A stretch of DNA of 9,227 bases from Candidatus Brocadiaceae bacterium (GTDB lineage: Bacteria; Planctomycetota; Brocadiia; SM23-32): positions 1 to 9,227 of the forward strand of contig PUNP01000366.1 in NCBI GenBank assembly GCA_003551785.1, written 5' to 3'. The translations under genes and the position numbers were made by a program. Of the stretch, positions 443-9,227 are shown piece by piece (position 1 is the stretch's first letter; each line of letters begins with the position of its first letter). Under the pieces are notes generated by a model. The model was given only the letters and a program-made list of their open reading frames with translations. It was not told the DNA's origin and did no database searches.

Positions 443-459
443 ATTCGCGAATTGCGAAT
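442..459. terminator. Small palindrome between convergent genes, possible bidirectional terminator or junction scar
   Basis: The 16 bases between the stop of the metallo-hydrolase remnant (440-442) and the stop of hsdR (459-461) are almost entirely symmetric. Bases 442-453 form the perfect 12-bp palindrome AATTCGCGAATT. Alternatively, ATTCGC at 443-448 pairs with GCGAAT at 454-459 around a 5-base loop. The unit GCGAATT is also repeated directly as GCGAATC. The position between converging genes suits a terminator, but the stem is short and no T-run follows on either strand, so it could equally be a scar of the rearrangement that truncated the remnant. Confidence 0.3.
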
Positions 460-3400
460 CATGCACTAGTCATTATGCTTGGATTATCTATCATTCGCCG
501 CATTAAATCGAACATGCCCTGATAATAGGCTTCGTCTTTTGCATAGCGTTTATATTCCTCTACATTTGCTTTACGCCTTTTCAGCATTGTTTCATCCATA
601 ATCCGTTTCAATGCCAGGTCACTGTTTTGTTTGTCTGCATTATCGGCCACTTTCTCCTTGAAATCCGGATGCGCCATTACATTTTTGGCTATGGATATGA
701 ATTTAACTCGTGCTTCTTCAGGAGTTTCTTCCCAGCCTGAATAGAAGCGATCATTAAATGTCCTGATTATTTCATCAAGTGGGTCTTTTTCTTCTTCTCC
801 CCCATGTGCGCTTCTTGGATTTGGGTTTTGCGGGTCCAATTCTGAATCTGAACTATCCAGACCAATGGAATGGTTAACTTTTGTACGTTCTAATCCGTAG
901 GTCGATAAATCTACAGAGTTCAGTAAACCATCAATTAACTCATCTTCTTTGGTTTTTACAATAAGTTTGGGGATTAAGAACTTCAGGAACCAGTATAGTT
1001 TCTCCCAATCCAAGATCTCATAAGTCATGATAGAAGCCATCTGACCATATATTTTAACGAACTGTTTGGCTTTGATTTTAAAATCAGCTTTATCTTTATC
1101 TTCAAGTTCCAGTTCCTGGTTAAATCTGTTGGCAGCAATATCAATAATAGGGCTTAATTGCTGTGCATCAACACCCTCAAAATATTTTATCGTAAAATCT
1201 TCTACTTCGCTCCATTCATAAACACCTAAATCGCCTAATGCGCTTTTTAATTCATGAAGTACGTTTATATCCGTTTCTTTTGTAAGGCTGGTGGATGTAT
1301 AAAACGGATCGAATGCTTCTTTAATATCATCGGTTGAATTAAAGAAATCGAGAATAAACAGGTCTTCAGTTTTCTTACCCAATTTATCAGCAGCACGATT
1401 TAGGCGTGACAAAGCCTGTACAGCCAATACACCTTGCAATTTCTTATCAACATACATGGTGCAAAGTTTAGGTTGGTCAAATCCGGCAAGATATTTATTA
1501 GCAACAACCAAAATGCGATATTCGTCTTCATTAAACTTGTCGCGGGTATCTTTTTCGGCAAAACCGTTTATGTCCGGCTCGGTAAAATCTATGCCATCCA
1601 CCTTTTTTTTCCCTGAAAAGGCAACAACAATTTTAAAAGGACTGCCCTTATCATTTAGGATTTGTTTTAGCGCCCGGTAATATCGAATAGCTGATTCAAT
1701 ATTTTGAGTAACCACCATAGCCTTGCCCTTTGCTTTAAGTATTTTGGTGTTATACACCTTTGTGATAAAATGCTCCATTATGATTTCGGCTTTAGTGGAA
1801 ATTGTCCTTTTATCACGCTCTACAAAAGCACGAAGCTTTTTCTGTGCTTTTTTACTATCAAACAACGGATTTTCCTGAATAGACTTTTCAATTTCATAAT
1901 AGCTCTTGTAGGTGGTATAATTTGCCAGCACATCCAGGATAAAACCTTCCTCTATAGCTTGCTTCATTGAGTACAGGTGAAAGGGTTTAAATGAGCCATC
2001 TTCCTGTTTGTTGCCGAATTTTTCCAACGTAGCGTTTTTTGGTGTCGCAGTAAAAGCCAAATAAGATGCATTGCCCTTCATTTTGCGAGCCTGCATGGCT
2101 TTTAGTATTTTATCCTGCGCATCTTCTTCGTCTTCTTCAATATCAGATTTACCCATGGATTGGTTCATTTTCCCTGCCGCTGTGCCACTTTGAGAACTAT
2201 GGGCTTCATCAATAATTACCGCAAAGGCTTTATCCGACAAATCGGCAATACCGTCAACAATAAAAGGAAATTTCTGAATGGTGGTAATGATGATTTTCTT
2301 GCCTTGTTCCAGGCTGGTTTGCAATTCACGAGAAGAATACGCCGGAGCAATTATGTTTTTTACTTCGGAAAATTCTTTGATGTTTTCCCTTAATTGTTTA
2401 TCAAGCAAACGACGGTCGGTAACTACAATTACCGAATCAAATAATGGTTTGTCAATAGCCTTTGCCCCGCGAGTATTTTGGTTTTCGGGGTAAGTTTCAA
2501 TCAGTTGATAAGCCGCCCATGTTATAGAATTAGATTTACCCGAACCTGCACTGTGCTGAATCAGGTAGGTCTGACCTACACCTTTAGCAGAAGCATCTGC
2601 CAGTATTTTACGTACCACATCCATTTGATGGTAGCGGGGGAAAAACAGGGTGCGTTTGCTTAAAGCATCATTAGGTTTACCATCGAATCGAACAAAATGC
2701 TGAATGATATTGGCTAAGCTTTCACGGGTAAACACTTCTTCCCACAGGTATTCTGTTTTGTGTCCGAATGGATTGGGCGGGTTACCCTTACCGTTGTTAT
2801 GTCCTTTATTGAACGGTAAAAAGAATGAATCTTTCCCGTTTAATTTGGTACACATATACACCTCGTCAGTGTCCACGGCAAAATGCACCAGGCAACGGCC
2901 AAAATTCAACAGGGGCTGGCGGATATCGCGGTCGTATTTGTATTGCCTGATACCGTGCACTTTGGCATTTTGCCCTGTCCAATGATTTTTAAGTTCGAGT
3001 GTTGCAAGTGGTAAACCATTCACAAACACAACCATATCAATTTCTTCCCGCAGGTTTTCCTGATTGTAGCGTACCTGCCGGGTAACACTAAACTCGTTGT
3101 TGTCAAAATTGTCTTTAGCCGTTTGGCTACTACTTTCTAAAGGCATAGGGTACAGCATGGTAAAAAAAGCATCTTCTACTTCCAGTCCCTTTTTGAGAAT
3201 ACGCAATAAGCCATATTTTTTGACCATACGGTCGTAGCGTTCTAGTATTTTCAGTTTCCAATCGGAAGAACGCTGCAGTTTTTCCAGTTCATCCTTTTGG
3301 GTGTTTTCGAGAAAATGCCAAAATCGGGTTTTATCAATGGCATATTTAGGGTCGAAATCAATGGCATTACCCATAAAAAAGCCATTACCGGAGCGGTATA

Positions 3401-3524
3401 GTTCGGTAGGGTCAGCAACCTGACCTTCGGCTTCCTTCAAACTAAGTTCTTCTTGTGTATAGCCTGTCAGTATTTTTTCTATTGCGGCTTCGAGGGCGGC
3501 TTCATTTGTTTGGGATTTATTCAT
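459..3524 (-). CDS. hsdR: Type I restriction endonuclease, R (translocase/nuclease) subunit HsdR
   Basis: HsdR is the motor and nuclease subunit of the HsdR-HsdM-HsdS complex: it translocates DNA using ATP and cuts away from unmethylated target sites. Numbered from the ATG at 3524 (1021 aa), the N-terminal PD-(D/E)xK nuclease has D163 and ELK at 177-179. The helicase core has Walker A HSAGSGKS (324-331), the DEAH box (439-442), TAT motif III (492-494), KYLAGFDQP (677-685) and motif VI QALSRLNR (703-710). The C-terminal part is helical and charged. Length and domain order are normal and all key residues are present, so it looks intact. It is the last gene of the operon. The ATG at 3524 overlaps the upstream stop within ATGAATAA, which suits translational coupling. 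An ATG at 3545 would add seven residues and a longer overlap. Base composition is clearly less AT-rich than the two DUF262 genes before it. Confidence 0.97.
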   Translation of the reverse strand: MNKSQTNEAALEAAIEKILTGYTQEELSLKEAEGQVADPTELYRSGNGFFMGNAIDFDPKYAIDKTRFWHFLENTQKDELEKLQRSSDWKLKILERYDRMVKKYGLLRILKKGLEVEDAFFTMLYPMPLESSSQTAKDNFDNNEFSVTRQVRYNQENLREEIDMVVFVNGLPLATLELKNHWTGQNAKVHGIRQYKYDRDIRQPLLNFGRCLVHFAVDTDEVYMCTKLNGKDSFFLPFNKGHNNGKGNPPNPFGHKTEYLWEEVFTRESLANIIQHFVRFDGKPNDALSKRTLFFPRYHQMDVVRKILADASAKGVGQTYLIQHSAGSGKSNSITWAAYQLIETYPENQNTRGAKAIDKPLFDSVIVVTDRRLLDKQLRENIKEFSEVKNIIAPAYSSRELQTSLEQGKKIIITTIQKFPFIVDGIADLSDKAFAVIIDEAHSSQSGTAAGKMNQSMGKSDIEEDEEDAQDKILKAMQARKMKGNASYLAFTATPKNATLEKFGNKQEDGSFKPFHLYSMKQAIEEGFILDVLANYTTYKSYYEIEKSIQENPLFDSKKAQKKLRAFVERDKRTISTKAEIIMEHFITKVYNTKILKAKGKAMVVTQNIESAIRYYRALKQILNDKGSPFKIVVAFSGKKKVDGIDFTEPDINGFAEKDTRDKFNEDEYRILVVANKYLAGFDQPKLCTMYVDKKLQGVLAVQALSRLNRAADKLGKKTEDLFILDFFNSTDDIKEAFDPFYTSTSLTKETDINVLHELKSALGDLGVYEWSEVEDFTIKYFEGVDAQQLSPIIDIAANRFNQELELEDKDKADFKIKAKQFVKIYGQMASIMTYEILDWEKLYWFLKFLIPKLIVKTKEDELIDGLLNSVDLSTYGLERTKVNHSIGLDSSDSELDPQNPNPRSAHGGEEEKDPLDEIIRTFNDRFYSGWEETPEEARVKFISIAKNVMAHPDFKEKVADNADKQNSDLALKRIMDETMLKRRKANVEEYKRYAKDEAYYQGMFDLMRRMIDNPSIMTSA

Positions 3525-5502
3525 TGAAAGTGGTTTTTGTTTCATTCATGTAAGTATTAATAAGGTTTGTCATTTCTTCATGATGTGCTTCTATTTCTTT
3601 TTTATTCCACTTCTCCATATCGTTTTTTGCATTTTCATTAAAAGACTCAAACATTATTAACTGCTTCAAACTCTCATTTTTATTTTTATTTTTGCAATCA
3701 TTTTTTTTCTGTATTGGCATATTTTTCCCAAAAAACGAATTACTGCTTCTGCTTACTAGGCATAGGTTGCCAAAAGAATCAAGAGTTATCTTTTTTTCTA
3801 TATCATCATTGCCAATTAACTCATTAATTCTTCCTTGTGGAAATAAATGTTCTACTGAAGAACGTTGGACAAATTTAAAATTGATAAATTCATCTTTATT
3901 AGCAAAAATTTTTTCAATATATATTCCTTTATATTCTAAAGGCATTTGTTTTTCTCCCTGAACGATGTCATAATATTTTTCCCATAATATATAATCCAAT
4001 AGGTTAAATAAAAATCTAGGAGTATGAGTTCCTAGGGTAAAAAATTTAATGTTTTCATTTACATTTTTATTGTAATAATTTTCAACATACTCTTTAAGAG
4101 AATCAATAAGAATTTCTTCAATGTTTTCTGCCTTATCAAGAGTTTTTAATATGTGTTGTAACCAATTTTTGTAATTGTTAGTTGTAAATGTTACATGCAT
4201 CATTGATTGCAAAACTCTGGTTTTATGCCTTTTTTCATCATCTTTTATAGACACTTCATAGTAATTATCCTTATTTATGCATTTTCTTAACCTCCAGTTC
4301 CAGTCTTTACCATCTTCATCTTCCTCTTTTCTTTTAATAACAAACCTATCAAACAAAACTCTTAAGCGTAAAAGTTGCTCTATGAAATCTATTGAATCCG
4401 GCAATTTATCCGGATAACCAAAGTCCTGCAACAGAAATTTATCATCTAATCTAATAGTGGATTCAATTTCTAATTTTTCCTTTGATATACTTAATACTTG
4501 CAGTAAAAAATTTGGAAAATCAATAATTGAAGTAAACTCAACCTTGTTTGTCTCTATTTGTTCTTGTTTAAAAACTTTTTCTATCTTAAAATATTTTATT
4601 ATATCTAATATTGAATTACTGTTTGAATCTTTACTTTTATCACTAGTGTTTTCAGCCTTTTCATTTTTTATATGTTTTTCTATAAATTTGCTTATATTCC
4701 CTTGTATCTGTGTGGATGTCCAATCTTCTCCAAAAAGTACACTTCTTTCTGAAGGGTCAAAATTCATTTGTATATGTGAGTTCATAATTGAACAAGCATC
4801 CCATATTTTAGCAAAAGCTTTTTCCTTTGCCAGGCAATTAATTTTTGAAATAAAAGCCGCTTTCAAAATTTCATGCATTTCAAGCTGCTCACCCCTGTTG
4901 TTCATTATTTCAAAATAATGGTTCAAATCAGTATGTTTCGGCAATTCAGCTCTAAATAGCAAAACATTCTTGTAAAAATACTTTATAAAATTATCATAAT
5001 TGTCGGGTTTTATATTTTCAAAAAAATAAGTTTCGATAATGTTTACAGCCTCTAAAATATTTAAGATTCCTATGTCATCTGTGTCAATTTCTTTAATTTT
5101 TTGATATGTCTTAAAATCTTTATGTAATTGGTCTATAACATGCCTTGTTTTTTCGCGTGCTTCAAAATAAAGATTACTATCACTTATATAGTTTTTGCTT
5201 TCACAAAAATTTTTAATTATGGCATTTATTAATGATAATACTGTAAATCTTTGCTGCCCATCAGTTATGACATAGAAGCCTTCGTTTTCTTTTTTAGAAA
5301 CGACCAAAGTTCCAAGATAGTAATTTGAATGGTTTGTGTTGTTTGGTAATGCATTACTCCTTATATCGTCAAGTAATTGTTTTATTTCTGGCTCTTTCCA
5401 CGCAAAGTTTCTTTGGTACAAAGGTATTAAGTACTTCTCCGATTTTAGTAATTCTTTAATATTTGTTTTTTTAACATTTTTGTTTTTTTCGTAACCAGTC
5501 AT
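3517..5502 (-). CDS. DUF262-DUF1524 (GmrSD-like) protein, putative type IV-like restriction enzyme
   Basis: This 661-residue protein has the layout of fused GmrS-GmrD enzymes. The N-terminal DUF262 domain (ParB/Srx-like fold, NTP-using in studied members) shows IPLYQRNFAW (26-35), YYLGTLVV (61-68), DGQQR (81-85) and the NNRGEQL...LKA block (201-215). A helical middle follows, with a polar low-complexity linker at about 280-298. The C-terminal DUF1524/HNH-type nuclease shows SVEHLFPQ (549-556, His552 and Pro555), FGNLCLVS (577-584) with the following N...F...N block, and a closing W...KEIEAHHEEM helix (633-644). Relatives (GmrSD, BrxU, SspE) cleave modified phage DNA, but the modification sensed here cannot be read from the sequence. 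It starts 11 bases after the upstream DUF262 gene and its stop overlaps the hsdR start. The DNA is very AT-rich (8 G+C in 4561-4620). A7 runs near the start codon and an A8 run at 3701-3708 may be prone to slippage. The family call is firm; the target is unknown. Confidence 0.93.
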   Translation of the reverse strand: MTGYEKNKNVKKTNIKELLKSEKYLIPLYQRNFAWKEPEIKQLLDDIRSNALPNNTNHSNYYLGTLVVSKKENEGFYVITDGQQRFTVLSLINAIIKNFCESKNYISDSNLYFEAREKTRHVIDQLHKDFKTYQKIKEIDTDDIGILNILEAVNIIETYFFENIKPDNYDNFIKYFYKNVLLFRAELPKHTDLNHYFEIMNNRGEQLEMHEILKAAFISKINCLAKEKAFAKIWDACSIMNSHIQMNFDPSERSVLFGEDWTSTQIQGNISKFIEKHIKNEKAENTSDKSKDSNSNSILDIIKYFKIEKVFKQEQIETNKVEFTSIIDFPNFLLQVLSISKEKLEIESTIRLDDKFLLQDFGYPDKLPDSIDFIEQLLRLRVLFDRFVIKRKEEDEDGKDWNWRLRKCINKDNYYEVSIKDDEKRHKTRVLQSMMHVTFTTNNYKNWLQHILKTLDKAENIEEILIDSLKEYVENYYNKNVNENIKFFTLGTHTPRFLFNLLDYILWEKYYDIVQGEKQMPLEYKGIYIEKIFANKDEFINFKFVQRSSVEHLFPQGRINELIGNDDIEKKITLDSFGNLCLVSRSSNSFFGKNMPIQKKNDCKNKNKNESLKQLIMFESFNENAKNDMEKWNKKEIEAHHEEMTNLINTYMNETKTTFNE

Positions 5503-5513
5503 TATTCTGTTTT

Positions 5514-6899
5514 TTATGGTTCTAGCTGTTCTAGCTTTTCAATAAATTTCTTGATATTATTCCCATCTTTTATAGAAATATTACCCTTTTGATCTTTAAC
5601 AATTTCAATTTCATTAAGTGGTTTTATTTGACTTCTAAACCATAATATATCAGGTTCGTTCCATTTATCAAGAAAGTTTAATGGCATAAGATGGTCATTT
5701 GCCTTAACTATATTTAAAATAGATTCGTATCGTATCATTTTTTTCTCTAGCCTTTTCTGATATGCCCACCTGTAAAGCTCTTTTGCAAAGTCTTCAAATT
5801 TATCATCGCTTGACCCAAATTTGTCAACATAACACATAAGCATAATCTGATACATTGTTCTTATTCTTCTATCACCTATTCTCCCAGAATAACTATAGTT
5901 AAAGATTCCTATTTTATCACCGTCCAGATCAATAGTATAATTATTCGTAAAGTCAATAATTTTGCTGTATAGTTTCACATAATTATTAACAAATTCAAAA
6001 AATCTTTTTCCATTTACTATCGGTTCATCTAACTGAAAAACTGAACTCATACTATTCTGATGAGCACGCAAAAGATAGGGATATATTTTTCCACTTTGAA
6101 TGATACGAAAAATGTTAATTCCTTTAAAATCATCAACTTTTTCTTTAGTAAAATAATACTCCCAATTCTTTTGCTTCCAGTTTCTAATTCTGAACAAATA
6201 CTTATTTATAACTTCATTTAAAAGTCCCTGGTCTATTGATTCTTCCCAACTCTGCACACATTCTCTCTTTTCTTCATAAGTGTTTTCATACATTTCTCTC
6301 AAATGAAATGCTTTTAGCAAGTCTGCCGGGTCTAAATCTTTACCTCTTGCATTTTGTGAATCAAAAAGCTGAAATGCTTCTGGTATATCATCTAATTCAA
6401 TAACAACAAAAGAGCAATGCTCTAGTAGATAACTTCTTACTTTTTGAGCATCTTCTTTACTTATTGCGTGAAAATATTTCGTGATAAATTCAAAATTGTA
6501 TTTAATATTATTCTTAGAAATTTTATATGGAAATTTCTGTTTTAATAACTCATGAAAGTTTTCTTTTGAAGTTTCTATATTTATTATTCTGTTTAAAACC
6601 TCAAAAATAAGAGAGAGTGTAACTAACCTTTGTTGTCCATCAACAATATTATAGGTTTTATCTTTAACATGAAAAATTATGGACCCTATTCGGTATTCAA
6701 CATTTTCTTCATTTTCAGATCTTTTAGATTCTCTAATGATATCCTCTATTAATTGACGTACATGTTTATTGGCTTTCCACTTATAAGGTCTTTGGTATGT
6801 TGGTATACACAAATCATAACATAATAAATCTTTTATTAATTTGATTTCTGCTTTCGGATATACTTCTTTCTCTTGATGATTGTTAGGATATGAATTCAT
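5514..6899 (-). CDS. DUF262-only protein (GmrS-like), no nuclease domain
   Basis: The gene encodes a 461-residue protein with a complete DUF262 signature: IPTYQRPYKW (32-41), IGSIIF (71-76), DGQQRLVTLSLI (87-98) and FDSQNARGKDLDPADLLKA (179-197). These line up motif for motif with the next gene in the operon. The remaining ~260 residues look helical, with several aromatic and charged stretches. I find no EHxxP/HNH-type DUF1524 motif; the protein ends in a short charged tail (about 425-461). It therefore carries the putative NTP-using and sensing half of GmrSD without a cutting half, and may partner the DUF262-DUF1524 protein encoded 11 bases downstream. Such a partnership is inference from adjacency. 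The ATG at 6899 is 8 bases beyond the stop of the repeat-protein gene. The DNA is strongly AT-rich, like its two neighbours in the insert. The alternative is a diverged nuclease domain that I cannot recognise by eye. Confidence 0.92.
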   Translation of the reverse strand: MNSYPNNHQEKEVYPKAEIKLIKDLLCYDLCIPTYQRPYKWKANKHVRQLIEDIIRESKRSENEENVEYRIGSIIFHVKDKTYNIVDGQQRLVTLSLIFEVLNRIINIETSKENFHELLKQKFPYKISKNNIKYNFEFITKYFHAISKEDAQKVRSYLLEHCSFVVIELDDIPEAFQLFDSQNARGKDLDPADLLKAFHLREMYENTYEEKRECVQSWEESIDQGLLNEVINKYLFRIRNWKQKNWEYYFTKEKVDDFKGINIFRIIQSGKIYPYLLRAHQNSMSSVFQLDEPIVNGKRFFEFVNNYVKLYSKIIDFTNNYTIDLDGDKIGIFNYSYSGRIGDRRIRTMYQIMLMCYVDKFGSSDDKFEDFAKELYRWAYQKRLEKKMIRYESILNIVKANDHLMPLNFLDKWNEPDILWFRSQIKPLNEIEIVKDQKGNISIKDGNNIKKFIEKLEQLEP

Positions 6900-6907
6900 T
6901 GATAAAA

Positions 6908-7858
6908 TTATTTATTATTCATTTTTCCTTTTATTTCGATGTAACGATTATACTCCTCTAAGGCTAAATTAATTGCAAATTTTTCAATTTTTTCAATGCC
7001 TACCCAATATTTTTCATTGTCAGAATAGTACATATTCATAAATATTCTTTCAAAGATTTTAATAAATTTATGTCTGTCAAAATCAATATTATTTCTCGCA
7101 TAATCCCATCCTTTTATATAAGCATGAGCTTTAATTTTTTTATATTCTAAATGTTCTTCATCATCACACAATCCATATCTCCTTTTGGCATCAACCAATT
7201 CAGATGCATAAACATCTGCATACTCAATTGCATATGATTCATCTTTACCTTCAAGAATTGACTTTTCGTATGCAAATGCATAATCTTCAATATATATTTC
7301 GTGGTACTCATCCAATGCAGTTAAATATGCAAATTTTTCTGCATAGATTTCTGTTTTACCTTCTTTAATTAAATCTTTATATGTTTCTGAATAAAGTTTT
7401 GCTCTCTCTTCAGAATCCGGTTTAAAATAAATCTCTCCTGCTTCAACACTTTCAATAAAATATTTTGTAAAACGTTCATCTGCTCCTCTAAGTTCACAAT
7501 ACAATAACAAGTCATTTTGAGCCTGGTCTGGATCTGCATTTTTGGATGCATCATAGCATAAGCCAAGCAGCTGATAATCATCATTATAACACATTGCACG
7601 AGCATATTGCTTACTCCATGCATGACTAAAGCCTTCCTTTCTTTTTTCTAAAAAAAGAACTGCATATTTTTCTCCATACTTTAATATGTGTTTATCAAAA
7701 TCTTCTTCCTGCCAATCGTCGGCACATTCCTCTTCATCTCTCAAATTTTCATCAAGATATCTAATAAATTCTTCGTAGGTTTCTTTATCAAAATTATGCT
7801 TCTTAACAATTCCGCTAAGTACTTCTTTTTTAAAATATTTCTCTATTAATGGTGTCAT
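6908..7858 (-). CDS. Acidic, tyrosine-rich helical-repeat protein of unknown function
   Basis: I do not recognise this family. From the ATG at 7858 it is 316 residues, with about 70 Asp/Glu against about 48 Lys/Arg and around 10% tyrosine; no signal peptide, membrane segment or catalytic motif is evident. It carries a degenerate repeat of the form Y(A/S)xx(Y/F)xxxxxEG(K/F)xxx(Y/W)xxx(Y/F)A. The clearest copies start near residues 65, 156 and 193, with weaker ones near 114 and 239. EGKTEIYAEKFA and EGKDESYAIEYA are the best-matched pair. The pattern suggests paired helices with a turn at the glycine, so a repeat scaffold is likely. An in-frame TTG at 7882 would add eight residues and overlap the hsdS stop as TTGA; I prefer the ATG because TTG starts are rare in this kind of genome, but both are possible. 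It stands between hsdS and the first DUF262 gene, 8 bases from the latter, which makes it a candidate partner, regulator or DNA-mimic protein (inference only). Confidence 0.88.
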   Translation of the reverse strand: MTPLIEKYFKKEVLSGIVKKHNFDKETYEEFIRYLDENLRDEEECADDWQEEDFDKHILKYGEKYAVLFLEKRKEGFSHAWSKQYARAMCYNDDYQLLGLCYDASKNADPDQAQNDLLLYCELRGADERFTKYFIESVEAGEIYFKPDSEERAKLYSETYKDLIKEGKTEIYAEKFAYLTALDEYHEIYIEDYAFAYEKSILEGKDESYAIEYADVYASELVDAKRRYGLCDDEEHLEYKKIKAHAYIKGWDYARNNIDFDRHKFIKIFERIFMNMYYSDNEKYWVGIEKIEKFAINLALEEYNRYIEIKGKMNNK

Positions 7859-7878
7859 AATATATGTTTTTTGTTTTT

Positions 7879-9153
7879 TCAACTAATTTTCACCTTCCCC
7901 CTCACCGCACTATCTATCAAAACCGATTTATATTCCTTTAATTTTTCTATTTGGGTTTGCTGTAAGGTAATGGCTTTGTCTATTTTGGTGGATTGGGTTT
8001 GGATGTAGGAAACGATGTCGTTTTGTTCTGTTTGAGGTGGAACTACAATTAATCTGTTTCCAATCCATTCAGAACTTGCTCTTGGCATTTTTGCTCCATA
8101 AGTCGAGGAGTCAACCATTGATATAAAAGCATTTGAAAGCATTAATTTTTGAAAATAAGCAGAATTATTAATGCGATAAACCAGAAACTCAGTTGAACAT
8201 AAACCTTCAAATTCTGCCAAATAAACTTTAGCTAGATAAGGCCTAAGTTTTCCAAATAAAATATCATTTTCTTGAAACTTATTAGCTAAACCTTCTACTT
8301 CGCCAGATGTATGAATAAATCTACCAGTATGAGATTCAACATTCTCCATTCCTACATAAACCATTGGAGAATCTTTACTTGATTCCTTTTCGTTGGTGAG
8401 ATTTAAAACGTACTTCAGTTTCTTCACCTCCCACTCCTCCGGAACCTCCCCAATCCATTCCACACCGCTATCCTTGACTTTTGCAGGCGCAGTCCAGACA
8501 TTTTCTTTTTCGTTCCATACCACTTTGCCTGTTACCGCATTTTGAATCAAAATTTGCTTGCGCTCTTTGAGCAGGGCAATGAACTTTTCTTTCTGGGCAA
8601 TGGCTTTTTCTATTTTGGCGGTTTTGTTGTCGAGGAATGCGGCGATGGCGGTTTGTTCTTCAGTTGGAGGAATAGGTATTTTAATGTTTTTCATTTCATC
8701 ATACCTTGTAGTCCATAAATCGGCAACAATACCATGCCCGTTTCTGTAGAATTCTTCTATAAAAGAATTTCCTTTTAGTAAATAGTTAGTATAACCACGT
8801 TTAAAGCTTTTTGGCTTCATTACAATATTTATTAATGAAACCGAACCGTTTTTGTTAGCAATACCACTTGAACCTTTTCTGTCTGACCGACTATTTATAA
8901 CAAAATCACCTTCTTTAACTAATTTTCTATTATCGCCATCATTGCTTTTTGCTGCATTATCAAGTTGAGGTAAAATGCCTTGTTTTGTGACTGATAAAGG
9001 TGGATAATTTTTATCAGAGACTTTATTTTTGCGTTCAATAAATTGTGTTCCAAGTCTTTTTGATTCCCAATGTTTTGGCACTAATCCCAACCACTCCACG
9101 CCGGAATCTTTATAAGCAGGGTATCTCTTGTATTTTAATTCTACTGTTTCCAT
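7879..9153 (-). CDS. hsdS: Type I restriction-modification specificity subunit HsdS
   Basis: HsdS recognises the bipartite DNA target for both methylation (with HsdM) and cleavage (with HsdR). The 424-residue protein shows the classic two-fold layout. An entry box, KDSGVEWLGLVPKHWE (15-30), leads into target recognition domain 1 (about 30-157). A central spacer follows (about 158-211: IPIPPTEEQTAIAAFLD, then KIEKAI and a long helix to NAVTGKV). A second entry box, KDSGVEWIGEVPEEWE (227-242), leads into recognition domain 2 (about 243-370). The distal spacer (about 371-424) has VPPQTEQNDIVSYIQ, KIDKAI and a helix to SAVRGKV. Both halves are complete, so a full asymmetric site is expected; its sequence cannot be read from the protein. 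The ATG at 9153 shares a base with the TAA of the upstream gene. The recognition-domain DNA is visibly more AT-rich than the spacers, which fits domain exchange. Confidence 0.97.
   Translation of the reverse strand: METVELKYKRYPAYKDSGVEWLGLVPKHWESKRLGTQFIERKNKVSDKNYPPLSVTKQGILPQLDNAAKSNDGDNRKLVKEGDFVINSRSDRKGSSGIANKNGSVSLINIVMKPKSFKRGYTNYLLKGNSFIEEFYRNGHGIVADLWTTRYDEMKNIKIPIPPTEEQTAIAAFLDNKTAKIEKAIAQKEKFIALLKERKQILIQNAVTGKVVWNEKENVWTAPAKVKDSGVEWIGEVPEEWEVKKLKYVLNLTNEKESSKDSPMVYVGMENVESHTGRFIHTSGEVEGLANKFQENDILFGKLRPYLAKVYLAEFEGLCSTEFLVYRINNSAYFQKLMLSNAFISMVDSSTYGAKMPRASSEWIGNRLIVVPPQTEQNDIVSYIQTQSTKIDKAITLQQTQIEKLKEYKSVLIDSAVRGKVKIS
7969..7992 (-). repeat. Direct repeat, distal copy inside hsdS
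   Basis: This 24-base segment matches 8599-8622 at 21 positions. It encodes the KIDKAI start of the distal spacer helix. The two copies are 630 bases (210 codons) apart and in the same frame, so recombination between them would remove or swap one recognition domain without breaking the reading frame. Confidence 0.65.
8599..8622 (-). repeat. Direct repeat, central copy inside hsdS
   Basis: This is the partner of the 24-base segment at 7969-7992 (21 of 24 identical). It encodes the KIEKAI start of the central spacer helix. The similarity reflects the duplicated half-subunit structure of HsdS, and may also act as a crossover point. Confidence 0.65.
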
Positions 9154-9227
9154 TAGTCCATTAGTTTTTTAAGGGTTTCGGCATCGGGTAGTTGGTCCTT
9201 TAATTGGGGAGGCAGTGTTTCGCTGGT
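9153..9227 (-). CDS. 3' end of the upstream operon gene, possibly a PDDEXK/DUF1016 (YhcG-like) nuclease
   Basis: The frame is open from the right edge of the window and encodes 24 residues: TSETLPPQLKDQLP followed by DAETLKKLMD, ending in a TAA whose last base is the first base of the hsdS ATG. The TAATG junction argues that this is a real coding end, coupled to hsdS. The tail resembles the LPxxLxxxLPxxExL ending I associate with DUF1016/YhcG-type PDDEXK nuclease-domain proteins, which often sit inside Bacteroidota type I operons. This is recognition from a very short segment; a diverged HsdM or another accessory protein remains possible. Confidence 0.6.
   Translation of the reverse strand, partial: TSETLPPQLKDQLPDAETLKKLMD

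Follow-up and report, generated by a model that had tools for sequence, protein, structure and literature searches.

TgvAB of Vibrio cholerae is described as a two-protein, GmrSD-like type IV system located between hsdS and hsdR (PMC11411939). According to that description its targets are T-even-type phages whose cytosines are modified, protection has been shown against phages whose hydroxymethylcytosine is glucosylated or arabinosylated, both proteins are needed, and substitutions in the DGQQR motif or in the DUF1524 catalytic residues abolish activity. Against several phages, the protection given by the tgvAB genes alone is lower by a factor of 10 to 100 than that given by the complete cluster, which the authors put down to expression balance, and a cluster carrying an HsdR active-site mutant is reported to be as protective as the unmodified cluster. 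In 41,142 genomes, the same paper counts 79 five-gene operons and 1,341 tgvAB pairs. A study from 2015 had noted GmrSD-like genes in the neighbourhood of type I loci, along with an enrichment of TPR_15 repeats nearby (PMC4619093), and another study suggests that the hsdS-hsdR site may be a recombination hot spot where defence systems settle (PMC12255303). How exactly GmrSD-like enzymes recognise modified DNA is unknown according to a 2025 review, which also states that the two-protein need of TgvAB and of GrwAB warrants investigation (PMC12409362).

The window (the whole 9,227-nt stretch analysed here) resembles V. cholerae TgvAB in carrying a DUF262 gene followed by a DUF262-DUF1524 gene in the hsdS-hsdR seam of a type I operon, with the same motifs; the likeness is one of layout and motifs as given in the published description (PMC11411939). 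TgvAB is described as two genes, whereas the window has a further gene, here called ORFX, upstream of tgvA. GrwAB of V. cholerae WASA strains is likewise a DUF262 system of two proteins, one of them a DUF1524 partner, but that partner is set apart from the window pair by its description as having an extended C-terminus with unknown domains, and GrwAB is described on a VSP-II variant, outside an hsd operon (PMC12409362). The single-chain type IV enzymes GmrSD, BrxU and SspE combine DUF262 and DUF1524 as the TgvB-like protein of the window does, but in one chain rather than two. RloF of Campylobacter jejuni is encoded by a DUF262 gene that also lies between hsdS and hsdR (PMC4619093, PMC11411939), although as a single gene rather than a pair with ORFX. 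Unrelated defence genes occupy the same seam in EPEC, where the cargo is the toxin-antitoxin system DarTG2 rather than type IV restriction (PMC12255303).

All genes of the window operon are on the minus strand. The specificity subunit gene hsdS (7879-9153; 424 aa; Pfam Methylase_S, PADLOC Specificity_I) is followed by ORFX (6908-7858), which encodes 316 aa from ATG 7858, the start position matched by three homologues, or 324 aa if translation begins at TTG 7882 (6908-7882). Next come the tgvA-like gene (5514-6899; 461 aa), assigned by Pfam to DUF262 (GmrSD_N) and DUF7834, and the tgvB-like gene (3517-5502; 661 aa), assigned to DUF262 and DUF1524 (GmrSD_C). The restriction subunit gene hsdR (459-3524; 1021 aa; Pfam HSDR_N, SWI2_SNF2 and T1R_D3-like) comes after tgvB and starts at ATG 3524 or, alternatively, at 3545. 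The junctions measure 20 nt from the hsdS stop to the ORFX ATG, 8 nt from ORFX to tgvA and 11 nt from tgvA to tgvB, and tgvB overlaps hsdR by 8 nt if the latter starts at 3524. A preliminary description of three same-strand genes with short junctions between hsdS and hsdR is thus correct in order, strand and coordinates, and from the spacing the three cassette genes are very probably carried on the hsd transcript.

Although the window holds hsdS and hsdR as identified by Pfam, the position of hsdM would fall outside it; in L003, the locus of a Bacteroidales MAG, one gene was taken for hsdM by eye and position. The end of another minus-strand gene (9153-9227), which overlaps the hsdS start by 1 nt and runs past the window edge, probably encodes the C-terminus of a YhcG/DUF1016-type PD-(D/E)XK nuclease. 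This assignment draws on 24 residues and gene order: the end resembles by eye that of the L003 gene at 6569-7663 (YhcG_C, DUF1016_N), and a gene of this type lies 5' of hsdS in both L003 and L126. At the other edge, a plus-strand frame at positions 2-442, convergent with hsdR, encodes the C-terminal portion of a metallo-beta-lactamase-fold protein (RMMBL); this gene looks broken or mis-sequenced because in-frame stops lie just upstream of the listed ORF.

Both DUF262 proteins match GmrSD_N in Pfam (E = 1.1e-31 and 1.3e-27). The first lacks DUF1524, and the second matches GmrSD_C at E = 3.4e-07. The QR, DGQQR and FxxxN motifs are present in both, as PTYQR at 33, DGQQR at 87 and FDSQN at 179 in the TgvA-like protein and as PLYQR at 27, DGQQR at 81 and FEIMN at 197 in the TgvB-like protein; DGQQR occurs in both proteins of all 82 full-length pairs. 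The DUF1524 part of the TgvB-like protein has likely His-Me finger residues, by pattern, at H552, N579 and N588, but a simple EH pattern matched only 36 of the 82 TgvB proteins and is therefore no general test for a His-Me finger. Both ends of this protein weakly match the sequence of the solved DUF262 protein 20yv. The AlphaFold model of the TgvA-like protein (pLDDT 86.5) gave partial Foldseek matches to solved entries of two phosphorothioate-linked proteins, DndI (E = 8e-7, TM-score 0.40 by query length) and SspE (E = 2e-6, TM-score 0.29 by query length), and a weak row for BrxU (E = 0.61). Among the 86 loci with a labelled tgvA, tgvB follows in 83 and the remaining three end at tgvA. The window pair groups with Bacteroidota sequences in the TgvAB tree, which also holds the Vibrio pairs L002 and L039 (not V. 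cholerae's own proteins).

Judged by its sequence, the window pair is thus very probably a working TgvAB-like type IV system. There is a small chance that the cassette does not function in defence, its TgvAB having decayed or taken on another role: Pfam matches the DUF1524 part only weakly (30.7 bits, with the cut-off at 23). However, the frames are open, the NTPase and nuclease motif residues are present and the operon spacing is tight. The reading of the pair as GmrSD-like and of the hsd operon as its host, both put forward in the preliminary description, therefore stands. The further suggestion that the trio could be a self-contained defence module needs changing in that the two DUF262 genes by themselves already make up the known system, which means that the trio is no new kind as such; the new element of the cassette is ORFX.

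The cassette is AT-rich relative to its host operon. Whole-gene G+C contents are 29.4% for ORFX, 28.3% for the DUF262 gene and 27.4% for the DUF262-DUF1524 gene, giving 28.1% for the cassette versus 35.9% for hsdS and 39.8% for hsdR; these values agree with four earlier 60-base G+C counts (8, 12, 32 and 28), which are exact. Codon usage of ORFX correlates best with that of the DUF262 gene (0.90) and least with that of hsdR (0.64). Of 22 TgvAB loci embedded in hsd operons, 16 have a pair that is richer in A+T than the accompanying hsd genes; the other six do not, and they include three Hymenobacter loci with an hsdR close to that of the window. Low G+C content, although true of the window as first described, therefore marks the cassettes of the window and L003 rather than TgvAB cassettes in general.

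We surveyed the hsdS-hsdR seam in 11 loci with a readable upstream side and an HsdR at least 62% identical to that of the window. The seam is empty in three (L124, L125 and L126, with 3, 4 and 9 nt), contains a DUF4268 gene in two (L127 and L128; Pfam was run on the L127 protein, and L128 was counted on the strength of its seam ORF, which starts in the same way as the one in L127), holds a different TgvAB alone in three (Hymenobacter L032, L043 and L076) and carries ORFX with TgvAB in two (the window and L003). In the seam of the remaining locus, L123, two small genes precede a third, distant TgvAB, and a gene for a DUF4062 protein follows it. A further relative, L108 (HsdR 77% identical), begins at a contig end, and its seam is outside the 11 loci counted. 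The hsdS-hsdR seam is thus an exchangeable slot.

Phylogenetic comparison points the same way. HsdR of L003 (70%), the three Hymenobacter loci and L123 is 66-70% identical to that of the window, whereas TgvA identity to the window falls from 51% in L003 to 35% in Hymenobacter and 26% in L123. The window, L003 and Hymenobacter form one clade in the HsdR tree (SH-aLRT 100). A single TgvAB clade for the same five rows was rejected (AU p = 0.00014), a value that is indicative because the five were picked by HsdR kinship after a first TgvAB tree had been seen and because the test tree held 36 of the 79 rows of that first tree, chosen by us with long branches left out. HsdR proteins forming one clade while their TgvAB proteins do not indicates that the cargo was replaced and the hsd backbone stayed.

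Contexts of tgvAB vary beyond this hsd lineage. The tgvAB genes lie beside or inside hsd genes in at least 24 of 88 TgvA loci, the window included, in at least five gene orders; these counts, like the seam contents given above, follow our own labels on gene maps made with our own ORF caller and locally iterated profiles rather than curated annotation, and L058 and L074 carry no TgvA label in the maps yet are rows in the TgvAB tree. Aliarcobacter tgvAB is found between genes annotated as a PD-(D/E)XK nuclease and a UvrD helicase, and large genes whose identity is unchecked flank tgvAB at the same places in Arcobacter and Sphingobacterium. Loci in this setting, which may amount to another type of host operon for tgvAB, are L001 (7675-16344), L018, L067 and L079. 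As for the host operon itself, three of the 46 plasmid records with an HsdR at 60-80% identity were read, and the enterobacterial plasmids L127 and L128, with the DUF4268 protein in the seam, encode an HsdR 69% identical to that of the window, indicating that this hsd lineage crosses phyla on plasmids. The locus with the third TgvAB (L123 3392-10068) combines an HsdR 70% identical to that of the window with two small uncharacterised genes and a DUF4062/Fic-like-C protein.

Five full-length ORFX members were found, a number that is a lower bound: the window protein, P0002, P0003, L003:9058-9984 and L012:4464-5306. Besides the window protein itself, protein searches with ORFX listed just two relatives, at 49% and 32% identity; those of L003 (39% identical, phmmer E = 5e-56) and L012 (31.5% identical over 165 residues, phmmer E = 4e-18), both from Bacteroidales MAGs, were absent from these listings and were found by reading around TgvA relatives. 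ORFX had no sequence match in Pfam, PHROG or PDB, and it showed no clear match to a known family or a solved fold. Compared with Pfam up to E = 1, the five members hit seven families, each with one member and at best with E = 0.025, none of which is a repeat family (TPR, ankyrin or other). The protein is acidic, with a pI of 5.0 in the window and of 4.5-5.0 across all five members. Its AlphaFold model, made from a three-row alignment (pLDDT 86.6), is all-helical with 15 helices and resembles a helical-repeat arrangement.

The preliminary description of ORFX as a repeat protein holds in part. Helical-hairpin motif units of the form G-K-[ST/D]-x-x-Y-A-x-x-[YF]-A lie at 84, 175 and 212, a spacing that four of the five members share, and self-match offsets of 37, 91 or 128 are among the best, again in four of five. 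Nevertheless, the repeats are weak: in single-sequence comparisons the best self-match of the five members was reached by 8, 19, 3, 0 and 11 of 200 shuffles. Of the 20 invariant alignment columns, 14 are glycine, alanine or aromatic, and no obvious catalytic set was seen among them by eye.

ORFX adjoins tgvAB in all three of the contexts that are visible among the five members, an adjacency that is partly ascertained because the two cases other than the window were found by searching beside TgvA. L003 shares the window order hsdS-ORFX-tgvA-tgvB-hsdR, with ORFX 1 nt upstream of tgvA rather than 8 nt, whereas the order in L012 is tgvA-tgvB-ORFX, with ORFX 3 nt downstream of tgvB. The 8-kb contig of L012 has no labelled hsd gene, and HsdS was undetected in its genome bin, for which completeness is not given. 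The repeat protein therefore co-occurs with the DUF262 pair both inside hsd operons and outside them. In about 970 other genomes, no full-length homologue without the pair was found, although one partial relative of 168 aa was. ORFX-bearing TgvAB pairs fall into two subclades of one TgvAB clade. Of the TgvA loci retrieved (L001-L087, 87 in all and including short ones), 85 show no ORFX, and six relatives in the L012 TgvAB clade are without it, the upstream side being cut by the contig end in L006 and L008; one of these relatives, L009, is 65% and 64% identical.

Profile searches for ORFX in Bacteroidota gave any match in 3 of 393, 2 of 199, 1 of 395, 1 of 11 and 1 of 395 genomes, and full-length ORFX in the L003 and L012 genomes only. 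Of the other three matches, one was a partial relative of 168 aa and two appear to be chance hits. About 970 of the searched genomes (G007-G976) were drawn without regard to TgvAB, and none of these contained full-length ORFX; a TgvA-like protein was found at E = 1e-60 in 10 of 393 genomes. The comparison of two ORFX among 80 TgvA-selected loci with none in about 970 genomes gives a rough Fisher p of 0.006, which is indicative given that the search methods differed between the two sets.

The partial relative (L093 8959-9462; E = 9e-7) lies beside a gene that by eye resembles a WYL-type regulator, and the 20-kb region around it contains no TgvA or TgvB match. It is possibly a free-standing relative of ORFX.

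ORFX may instead be a passenger with no relation to TgvAB, or a one-gene defence function of its own that landed in a hot spot by chance, in which case only TgvAB is a system. This reading is a serious one, if somewhat less than probable. The gap between hsdS and tgvA holds other genes elsewhere (PDDEXK_3 in L023 9451-9870, SIR2_2 in L053 8665-9756 and a protein without assignment in L056 9121-9783), so that ORFX could be another passenger, and the proposal of the seam as a recombination hot spot and defence-system site (PMC12255303) and the scarcity of ORFX among TgvA loci also favour this reading. TgvAB without ORFX also occurs in hsd operons related to that of the window (Hymenobacter L032, L043 and L076; L123), which partly shows the trio genes to be separable and weakens the earlier picture of the trio as a unit, although the TgvAB lineages in those operons are different and distant ones. 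However, ORFX lies beside tgvAB again at a second position where no hsd genes are labelled, in a second subclade of the same TgvAB clade, and its full-length form turned up nowhere else in about 970 genomes. On balance, and given small numbers, we think it somewhat probable that ORFX functionally belongs to TgvAB as an optional accessory subunit or regulator. It is not generally required, because V. cholerae TgvAB works without it, and no third gene of this sort beside TgvAB was described in the titles and abstracts listed by literature searches.

Its place directly after hsdS in the window and L003, together with its acidity, might instead suggest that ORFX regulates the type I system or inhibits it as a DNA mimic, acting on HsdR or HsdS and not on TgvAB. 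We regard this as very improbable, since the L012 ORFX accompanies tgvAB on a contig without labelled hsd genes and in a bin without detectable HsdS, since ORFX is missing from hsd relatives with an HsdR 62-70% identical (Hymenobacter, L123-L126), and since its predicted structure looks like a helical repeat.

Our overall explanation, which we hold to be evenly poised between right and wrong, is that of a TgvAB module in an exchangeable slot with ORFX as an optional third component. A TgvAB-type type IV module would occupy the hsdS-hsdR slot and would be expressed from the hsd operon or its promoter. The host type I system would cut unmethylated foreign DNA and the embedded pair DNA with modified bases; restriction of T-even-type phages is presumed here by analogy with published V. 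cholerae TgvAB. ORFX, travelling with some members of one TgvAB sub-lineage, may be an acidic adaptor of helical-repeat type without enzymatic activity, with TgvA as its most likely binding partner. It would tune the nuclease, by holding it back until DNA with modified bases appears or by providing an additional surface for recognition. This role is suggested by fold type, charge and optional presence, and its operation through direct TgvA binding is tentative and rather doubtful. TgvA of the three ORFX loci has a pI of 7.99, 9.21 and 8.83, but basic values are usual for TgvA (median 8.0), and charge is therefore compatible with binding without being a special sign of it. The stronger claim that ORFX is a dedicated third subunit of a three-component type IV system, holding the DUF262 heterodimer inactive or bringing in a new target modification, is on the unlikely side, as is the accompanying idea that ORFX stayed with TgvAB while operon position and host operon both changed.

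One hsd backbone is thus found with an empty seam, with DUF4268, with three distant TgvAB lineages or with TgvAB plus ORFX, a series that makes a clean case of defence-gene swapping at a fixed operon point. If the association of ORFX with TgvAB is real, a natural third component, optional and confined to one TgvAB lineage, would offer a handle on recognition or control in these systems.
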